From Halobacteriales archaeon QS_8_65_32 (GTDB taxonomy: Archaea > Halobacteriota > Halobacteria > Halobacteriales > Halococcaceae): DNA of 38,549 nucleotides. This document shows positions 34,821 through 36,976 of the stretch, in pieces. The translations under genes and the position numbers were made by a program. A model generated the notes under the pieces. That model was not told where the DNA came from, searched no databases, and saw only the letters and a list, made by a program, of their open reading frames with translations. How positions within the stretch are numbered: position 1 is the first letter of the stretch; each line of letters begins with the position of its first letter. The DNA is taken from contig PXRY01000021.1 in the NCBI GenBank assembly GCA_003022925.1, positions 1-38,549 of the forward strand, given 5' to 3'.

Positions 34821-34906
34821 ACCGCCACGATCATCGGTACCGAATACCGCTCGAAGGAAATAACCGTAGTATCGCGATCGTCCGGGAGCTGTAGACGAAC
34901 CTGTCC

Positions 34907-35060
34907 TCAGAGCCGTTTCGAGACGTACGGACGCAGACTTTTGCCGCGTCCCGCTCGCTACACTTCGCTCGCTCGGGGACCGCGGCAAAAATCCTGCATC
35001 GAAAACTCGTAACGAACTCCGTCTTCGGCTGCTTTACAGTCGCTTCGAGACGTACGGACC
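34907..35060 (-). repeat. Hairpin element bracketed by a duplicated elp3 3' end
   Basis: ttttgccgcg (34939-34948) and cgcggcaaaa (34981-34990) form a perfect 10-bp inverted repeat with further pairing inside. On both sides lies a minus-strand copy of the elp3 terminus: the functional one at 35034-35060 (GPYVSKRL*) and a second at 34907-34933 (PYVSKRL*). The copies share gtccgtacgtctcgaa and then differ only at synonymous sites. Confidence 0.6.
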
Positions 35061-36710
35061 GTCCTGATAGTACCCTAATTTCTCCCGGTAGTACTCCCGT
35101 GCGCCGATCCCGCTGATCACGCTTAATTTCTCGTAGCCGTCGTCCACGGCCATCGCCTCGGCTTTTGCGAGCAGTTTTCGGCCGTATCCCTGGTGTTGGT
35201 AGTCCTGGCCCTCCTCGCCTTCGACGCCGACACCCACCTCGTTGCCGTAGACGTGTAGTTCGCGCACCAACGCGGCGTTTTCCAAGCCGCGCCGCGCCAC
35301 CTCGCCGGGGTACCGCAGTCGACAGAACCCGACCAACGCGTCGGTTTCCGGGTCAACGTAGCTCAGGAAGAATTCGGTGCCGCCAGAAGCGTCGTAAGTG
35401 AGCGTCCGTAATTCGATGTCCGCGGGGTCGGGTACCCTATTACGCATCCCGACTTCCCGACACCGGATACAGTCGCACTCCCAACCGTGTTTGGCCATCT
35501 CGCGGCGGGCGAGCTGGCGGAGATTGGACTTCCAGACCCCCGCGTCGATGAAGTCCGCCGGGATATCGCGCTGGACGCGCTGGAGCCGGACGTATCGCGG
35601 GAGCATCGCCTTGATCTCGGCGACCAGTTCGGCGGCCTCCTCGTTGCGAAGCGGCTCGTAGTCGTCGCGCCGCCAGGCGTCGTACACCCGCGTGCCCCGG
35701 ACGACGAGCGTGGGATAGATCTTGAGGTAGTCGGGCTTCCACTCGCTTTCCTCGAACAGCCTCCGGAAATCCTCGACGCACATCTCCCGGTCCATCCCCG
35801 GCTGGCCGGGCATCATGTGAAAGCCGACTTTGAAGCCCGCATCGCGCAGCCGGCGGTTCGCGTCCACGGAGGCCTGGGTGCCGTGCCCGCGGTGCATCGC
35901 CCGATTGATTTCGTCGAAAGTAGTCTGGACGCCCACCTCGACCTTCGTGCCGCCGAGCCGGAGCATGCGTTCGATCTGCTCGGGGTCACACCAGTCGGGT
36001 TTCGTCTCGAAGGTCGTCCCGATGTTACGAACGTCGGCGCGCTCGTTCTCCGCGATCACGTCCTCCACGTAGCGAAACTCGTACTCGTCGGGTTCTTGGG
36101 CGAAGCTCACCCCTTCTTTCGGTTCGGGCGTCCCTTCGGGTTCGTAGTCGTTCATCGCTTGCAGGGCGCGTTTGACGAACCATTCCTGGTAGTCGTGGCT
36201 CCGAGCGGTCATCGTTCCGCCCATGAGGATGAGTTCGACCTTGTCGACCGGATGGCCGATCTTCCGAAGCTGTTCGAGCCGCAACGTCACCTGGCCGTAA
36301 GGATCGTAGTCGTTCTGAACCCCACGAGAAGCGGCGGGTTCGTGGCCGGTATAGCTCTGAGCCGAGGAAAAGTCCGACGCCGGGCCGCCCGGACAGTACA
36401 GGCACTTGCCGTGGGGACACATCCGCGGTGAGGTCATGATCGCCACCGGTGAAACCCCCGATGCCGTGCGGACGGGCTTTCGGCGCACCACTGCGGCGAC
36501 CGCCTCCCGCTTCCCGTCGGGCGCGAAATCGAGTACTTCGGCGTTGGTCGGCACCTTCGGCGCGGAGTACTCGCTACAGACCTCACGTTTCGCGCCTTCG
36601 ATGTCCTCGCGTTCGAGATCGCCCTCCAAGACGCCCGCTACCAACGCCTCACAAGCACGCTCGAACGCCTCGGTTTCGGTCGGGTCGTCGGTCGTGGTGT
36701 CGCTGCTCAT
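35034..36710 (-). CDS. elp3: Elp3-type tRNA U34 modification enzyme (radical SAM/GNAT)
   Basis: Elp3 adds a carboxymethyl-type group to wobble uridine of tRNA using SAM and acetyl-CoA; archaea have Elp3 alone. The 558 residues start at ATG 36710. The basic/helical N-terminus has KVPTNAEVLDFAPDGKREAVAAVVRRKPVRTASGVSPVAIMT. The radical-SAM cluster is CPHGKCLYCPGGP (Cys98, Cys103, Cys106), followed by SAQSYTGHEPA. RLGGTKVEVGVQTTFDEINRAMHRGHG and KVGFHMMPGQPGMD belong to the TIM barrel. A zinc-type Cys cluster (CDCIRCREVG) precedes the GNAT domain, which includes YQHQGYGRKLLAKAEAMAVDDGYEKLSVISGIGAREYYREKLGYY. The final seven codons are duplicated downstream (see the repeat entry). Length and domain order are normal. 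Confidence 0.96.
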   Translation of the reverse strand: MSSDTTTDDPTETEAFERACEALVAGVLEGDLEREDIEGAKREVCSEYSAPKVPTNAEVLDFAPDGKREAVAAVVRRKPVRTASGVSPVAIMTSPRMCPHGKCLYCPGGPASDFSSAQSYTGHEPAASRGVQNDYDPYGQVTLRLEQLRKIGHPVDKVELILMGGTMTARSHDYQEWFVKRALQAMNDYEPEGTPEPKEGVSFAQEPDEYEFRYVEDVIAENERADVRNIGTTFETKPDWCDPEQIERMLRLGGTKVEVGVQTTFDEINRAMHRGHGTQASVDANRRLRDAGFKVGFHMMPGQPGMDREMCVEDFRRLFEESEWKPDYLKIYPTLVVRGTRVYDAWRRDDYEPLRNEEAAELVAEIKAMLPRYVRLQRVQRDIPADFIDAGVWKSNLRQLARREMAKHGWECDCIRCREVGMRNRVPDPADIELRTLTYDASGGTEFFLSYVDPETDALVGFCRLRYPGEVARRGLENAALVRELHVYGNEVGVGVEGEEGQDYQHQGYGRKLLAKAEAMAVDDGYEKLSVISGIGAREYYREKLGYYQDGPYVSKRL

Positions 36711-36976
36711 ACGGCGGGTAGTAACGGGAATCGCCCTCTCGCGCGAATAAGCGTGTCGTTCGATCGGATTCCGGCGTGATCGACGGTATTCATGATCGAC
36801 TTCTTAGTCACCGACTCCCTCATCACCACTACACACCCACCGAGCGGCGCGAAGATCCGTCTTCGCGCCTTCATTCCATGGGGAGAACAAACATCGAAAC
36901 TGCTGCAGGGCGAGGGAACAGTTGCCCTGTTCGGGACGGAACCGTCCGTGCAGGGTGTCGTTCGGTGTGAACGCAA
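36711..36976. other. Intergenic region between TFB and elp3
   Basis: About 270 bases on the 3' side of TFB and the 5' side of elp3 (both minus). It contains a strong stem-loop (36847-36868) and the short dyads gaacag-ttgcc-ctgttc and gacggaaccgtc. The elp3 promoter is probably the cttattcg region near 36747. The 72-residue plus-strand ORF at 36792 lacks protein-like features. Confidence 0.45.
36847..36868 (-). terminator. Perfect stem-loop downstream of the TFB gene
   Basis: gcgcgaaga-tccg-tcttcgcgc is a perfect 9-bp stem with a 4-nt loop, 109-130 bases after the TFB stop. No T-run follows on the minus strand, so it may be a 3'-UTR structure rather than a classical terminator. Confidence 0.4.

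Follow-up and report, generated by a model that had tools for sequence, protein, structure and literature searches.

A hairpin between two copies of the elp3 3' end in haloarchaea: distribution, polarity and possible origin

Elements that replace the C-terminus encoded by a host gene are known from fungal mitochondria, where they were described in atp6 of Allomyces macrogynus and in atp6, atp9, cox2 and nad3 of Glomus (PMC3630166). Within the haloarchaea, SMR-A and SMR-B of Haloquadratum walsbyi are non-coding sequences of ~80-110 bp with inverted repeats and an enigmatic mobilisation (PMC3119063). The available text on Haloferax volcanii terminators reports T tracts and hairpins behind stop codons, a likeness to the locus treated here, and within that text duplicated gene ends or movement are not described (PMC7237163). 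A literature search, with most subscription journals outside its reach, returned no report of the present arrangement or of elp3 ends as an insertion site.

The window analysed here is a stretch of 38,549 nt from Halobacteriales archaeon QS_8_65_32 (contig C21 of an assembly of 127 contigs, 78% complete). A first-pass annotation of its letters had claimed that the end of elp3 is duplicated around a hairpin. This duplication is real, and the locus was divided into the following features.

35034..36710, minus strand: elp3 (tRNA uridine-34 carboxymethyl radical SAM/GNAT enzyme), open reading frame of 558 aa with its stop codon at 35034-35036
35034..35059, minus strand: copy 1, the elp3 3' end in use (GT + PYVSKRL + TAA)
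34933..35033, minus strand: insert between the copies, a 3'UTR-like spacer and hairpin
34985..35008, minus strand: T-rich leader of the hairpin, GAGTTTTCGATGCAGGATTTTTGC on the minus strand
34933..34997, no strand: full hairpin, from the RNA fold of 34900-35060
34981..34990, no strand: hairpin arm cgcggcaaaa
34939..34948, no strand: hairpin arm ttttgccgcg
34907..34932, minus strand: copy 2, the downstream elp3 3' end (GT + PYVSKRL + TGA)

The reading frame was assigned with NCBIfam model TIGR01211 (ELP3; 763.6 bits, cut-off 350). Its terminal PYVSKRL-stop sequence CCGTACGTCTCGAAGCGACTGTAA (35057-35034) recurs at an offset of 127 bp as CCGTACGTCTCGAAACGGCTCTGA (34930-34907), and these were the only two matches to PYVSKRL-stop in the 3.28-Mb assembly. 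As the annotation had stated, the 16-mer GTCCGTACGTCTCGAA is identical in both copies (35044-35059 and 34917-34932), and beyond it they differ by three third-codon-position changes (AAG/AAA, CGA/CGG, CTG/CTC) and by the stop codon (TAA/TGA), all synonymous. The perfect 10-bp inverted repeat between the copies was likewise found as described, within a stem that is far longer than 10 bp. Some 40 nt of further sequence lie between the elp3 stop codon and the ATTTTTGC arm, and the leader contains two T tracts in the layout of other elp3 elements. Folding of 34900-35060 as RNA gave -70.1 kcal/mol, with a z-score of -3.69 against shuffled sequences.

Copy 2 is homologous to the second copy in the sister genome G001. 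The neighbours of elp3 on both sides are non-syntenic between the window and three sisters, and what the window has in common with G001 is limited to elp3, some 50 nt ahead of it and the stretch that reaches through copy 2. Over 34850-36760 the flanking genes thus differ from those of the sisters, as if elp3 and cassette had moved as a unit.

For the distribution, 394 Halobacteriales genomes were searched with the DNA pattern PYVSK[RQH][LVI]-stop, which matched in 282 genomes and twice in 18. The second match always lay on the same strand, 96-295 nt downstream; in these 18 genomes none was found elsewhere. The reversed pattern gave a single match in all 394 genomes together. Given this control and the two matches in the window's entire assembly, the duplicated end is not due to chance. 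A protein search with the last 51 elp3 residues against 295 genomes placed extra ends only close behind elp3, and the other, weak second matches proved to be something else than elp3 ends, except in genome G094. There, two apparently complete elp3 3' ends are located on separate contigs (C40:9946 and C20:241093; L067 and L075).

Together with cases that the pattern missed (G002, G151, Haladaptatus DYF46 and others), 24 elp3 loci with the arrangement were collected from ~13 genera and 7 families. The annotation had named the same arrangement in distant species as a finding against its proposal; the arrangement does occur in distant species, and we read this as a recurrent event, not as an error. 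On an elp3 tree built without the last 30 codons, 25 positives among 158 genes required 20 state changes, against 21-25 for shuffled labels, counts that do not separate gain from loss. The trait therefore comes and goes with little clustering, in a patchy manner, and empty elp3 sites could be losses rather than sites never occupied.

The start of the downstream copy falls into few classes. It lies at -26 to -31 in 16 loci of six families, at -63 to -69 in four loci of three families, at -78 in three loci of two families, and at -42 in one locus. The three -78 loci share the same 17 nt before the start (junction gcgcaaaaggtcgtcgt/GGCATCGGCG), and AAAAGGT or a near form precedes the downstream copy nearly always. 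Junctions common to several families are expected if a unit of hairpin and copy is transmitted together with its left junction and its right part is replaced by the native end of the recipient.

Polarity was read from element-free relatives. In Halococcus thailandensis, copy 2 and its flank (CGTCTCGAAGCGGTTGTAAACGGAATT..) match the element-free elp3 end of H. morrhuae, whereas copy 1 (GTGAGCAAGCAGTTGTGAACAACG) differs from it at six positions in 18 nt and uses another serine codon. In the Halobacterium group, copy 2 of G151, flank included, corresponds to the undivided G102 end, and at elp3 of Haloferax the downstream copy and flank of L183 match the empty L178. A second Haloferax gene (ending ..RDVLADRPRHVFLA-stop) has the same polarity in G394 against the empty G196 and in G315 against the empty G395. 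On these comparisons the gene uses a newly arrived end in all three genera, Halococcus, Halobacterium and Haloferax, and the native end has been displaced. The annotation had suggested that the downstream copy is foreign; in all three genera it is instead the downstream copy with its flank that matches element-free relatives, and wherever polarity can be read, the end attached to elp3 is the newcomer. By analogy with these genera, copy 2 of the window would be the displaced native end. In the window's own genus, the only hint of polarity is weak and lies in CTCTGAGGACAGG, which follows copy 2, and CTCTGAGAACAGG, found at the undivided elp3 end of G003.

Codon differences between the copies of the 24 loci were 34 synonymous and 4 non-synonymous, with 26% synonymous expected without constraint; in this count, extension stops at non-synonymous codons with at least two changes, leaving a few such codons uncounted. 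The downstream stop codon was kept in 23 of 24 loci and was a different codon in 10. Both ends have therefore served as coding ends until recently, which fits recombination between related elp3 genes and not an old, decaying target duplication. The preference of the annotation for recombination over target-site duplication is partly supported, but not with the polarity it had proposed.

Other gene ends were tested at codon level for a downstream copy of the last eight residues and stop codon (1349 ORFs; 80 named loci/genomes). Such copies were found for elp3 in 7 of 80 and at none of ~1270 other genes, save ORFs in CRISPR repeats on one contig; the DNA-level test agreed. Outside Haloferax, a duplicated end as a general property of gene ends was rejected by both tests. 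Related hairpins are nevertheless dispersed in the window's genus, with 3 to 10 matches per genome, and behind other genes no duplicated end was seen at 20 of 21 such sites. In this genus the duplication is thus peculiar to elp3. Loci L265-L290 of the same genus, with hairpins of the form CAGATTTTTGC..GCAAAAAGGTGCGT and no duplicated gene ends, have their right end mostly within a few nt of the stop codon of an opposite-strand gene.

A search of Haloferax that required no repeat detected a hairpin (GGTCCAGATTTTTGC-stem-GGAAAAAGGTGG) at 36 positions, spread over 12 of the 15 genomes. Of the 30 loci read, 26 have the 3' end of the gene upstream repeated on both sides of the hairpin; two of the others repeat a gene's first codons and two are without repeat. 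The genes with repeated ends include elp3, pheT-like, thiolase-like, etfA-like and others, names judged from C-terminal sequences alone. The stem covaries strongly (22 cells changed on both sides, against 5.3 in shuffles), the unit number at one gene varies between species from 0 to 3, and the youngest repeats measure 38-50 nt and end in a TTTTT tract. At L242 and L260 (G395 C2:134496 and G396 C171:2379) the hairpin is flanked by a repeat of the first 43 nt of a gene on the opposite strand, start codon included, which indicates that gene 5' ends are duplicable too. At L292 and L296, where the gene ends in RDVLADRPRHVFLA, the upstream parts of the repeats are identical within a genome and different between species, pointing to concerted evolution of the repeats, and the last 15 nt stay different.

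We give an even chance to the reading that these loci hold a small hairpin cassette with gene-end copies on both sides, and that recombination at these copies accounts for its spread as well as its loss; no simpler model covers the observations. The cassette would be a non-coding hairpin of ~95-295 bp at the elp3 3' end, its right end fused to a copy of the elp3 end. Left recombination inside elp3 would provide the recipient with the cassette's last codons, stop codon and 3'UTR, and right recombination in the extra copy would place the native last codons, stop codon and flank behind the hairpin; the protein would be unchanged and the 3'UTR alone exchanged. Exchange between the repeats would lead to clean deletion or multiplication of the unit. 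Movement would rely on homologous recombination once mating or transformation has brought in DNA. Both interspecies DNA exchange and efficient gene conversion are known in haloarchaea. Founding at a new gene would take insertion of a hairpin with duplication of 27-50 nt (sometimes longer) of the gene end, and the Haloferax repeats of 38-50 nt ending in TTTTT fit either insertion with long duplication or a template switch.

Homologous recombination in many systems requires identity longer than 16-28 nt, and this requirement counts against the cassette model. Hairpin-free tandem duplications of the elp3 end count against it as well, since local duplication is possible alone; units of 19 nt in Haloferax larsenii (L163/L179) and of ~33 nt in G039 (L026) sit just behind the elp3 stop codon. 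Further points against it are that empty sites could be losses, that the other hairpin sites of the window's genus lack a duplicated end (20 of 21), and that neither donor DNA nor a free form was found: viral contigs and phages yielded no elp3 end and plasmids one annotated elp3 gene only. A bolder form of the model is tentative and, in our judgement, rather doubtful: a new class of non-coding mobile elements that would use a copy of the host gene's 3' end as homology arm and spread between species without an enzyme, targeting particular gene ends, elp3 above all, and swapping last codons and 3'UTR. A role of hairpin and T tracts as 3'UTR or terminator is plausible by analogy, because T tracts and hairpins are known at Haloferax 3' ends (PMC7237163).

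Several observations on Haloferax would also suit a non-autonomous mobile hairpin that some unknown transposase inserts at T tracts following stop codons, with a long target duplication (~40-50 bp in Haloferax and elsewhere up to 140 bp) and no incoming gene ends. Its arms stay conserved at many different genes, the repeat starts 24-41 nt ahead of the stop codon and extends to a TTTTT tract, and at gene g48 the occupied L184 differs from the empty L185 by a clean 48-nt repeat across the stop. Such an insertion may well have been the founding step. As an account of the whole we consider it unlikely: the repeat length is inconstant (27 to >140 nt), an old duplication should decay randomly, yet the differences are synonymous and the stop codons kept, and hybrid copies with a native downstream end occur. 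Purely local events, in which slippage or template switching at a hairpin would duplicate gene end and terminator and nothing would move, have in their favour the hairpin-free tandem duplications at elp3 (L026, L163), the last copies of L013 and L238, with the same hairpin's left half behind them, the clean 137-bp tandem repeat of L187, and unit numbers that vary in the manner of a minisatellite. Hairpin and spacer are, however, absent from empty relatives (L183 against L178, G315 against G395) and were therefore not duplicated from local DNA; the arms bear the same mismatches at unrelated genes, and identical junctions recur in different families. These points leave a purely local origin improbable.

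Tyrosine-recombinase elements classically integrate into the 3' end of a gene and restore that gene, and archaeal att sites of 40-50 bp, including sites in protein genes, have been reported (PMC8371274). The elp3 3' end could accordingly be an attB and its copies the attL and attR of an integrative element whose middle was lost, but almost all cases retain a hairpin that is laid out in the same way, the junctions differ, and viral contigs and phages contained no elp3 end, which makes such a scar very improbable. A large integrated element at elp3 was also sought; none was found at the site, and across the 394 genomes no second end is more than 295 nt away. The 127 contigs and 78% completeness of the window's assembly might suggest an artefact, a notion with virtually no probability left: artefact and chance are both refuted, since two sister species share the arrangement and it recurs in complete genomes from other genera.

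If the cassette reading is true, very short non-coding elements spread between species without a transposase, and the end of a conserved gene serves as their landing site while the protein stays intact. The last codons of some haloarchaeal genes would then have a history different from that of the rest of the gene. A natural series, with 0, 1, 2 or 3 units at one gene among sister species, present at several genes and in the easily handled Haloferax, would suit testing of recombination over very short homology in archaea.

Compared with known systems, the hairpin matched no family model of Rfam 15 up to E = 1. On either strand its T tracts precede the stem (TTTTTGC..stem..GCAAAA), whereas in a bacterial-type intrinsic terminator the T tract stands directly 3' of a GC-rich stem. 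An integrase gene between the copies, as in an integrative element, was not found, no copy lying more than 295 nt away in 394 genomes. Haloarchaeal MITEs and PATEs resemble the cassette in being short, transposase-free and palindromic (PMC3119063). MITEs have transposon-related ends (PMC3119063), and in place of their short target duplication of fixed length the repeats here range from 27 to >140 nt. PATEs are related to IS605 and cause no duplication (PMC3119063), whereas the cassette's duplication is long, is not constant and takes in the gene end. The SMRs are close in size and structure, repeat periods here being 92-295 nt with a hairpin of ~50-65 nt and long inverted repeats. They lack a target duplication and prefer other mobile elements (PMC3119063), in contrast to gene-end repeats of 27 to >140 nt (26 of 30 Haloferax loci) and hairpins behind core genes such as elp3. 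The fungal elements encode a homing endonuclease and measure ~1 kb (PMC3630166), and the elp3 insert is a non-coding hairpin of at most ~295 nt and has no endonuclease. In both, the host gene is joined to a foreign 3' coding end and the element comes next, and the native end, displaced downstream, matches relatives, with largely synonymous differences (PMC3630166); a displaced native end with a foreign end in use is what the comparisons in Halococcus, Halobacterium and Haloferax point to.
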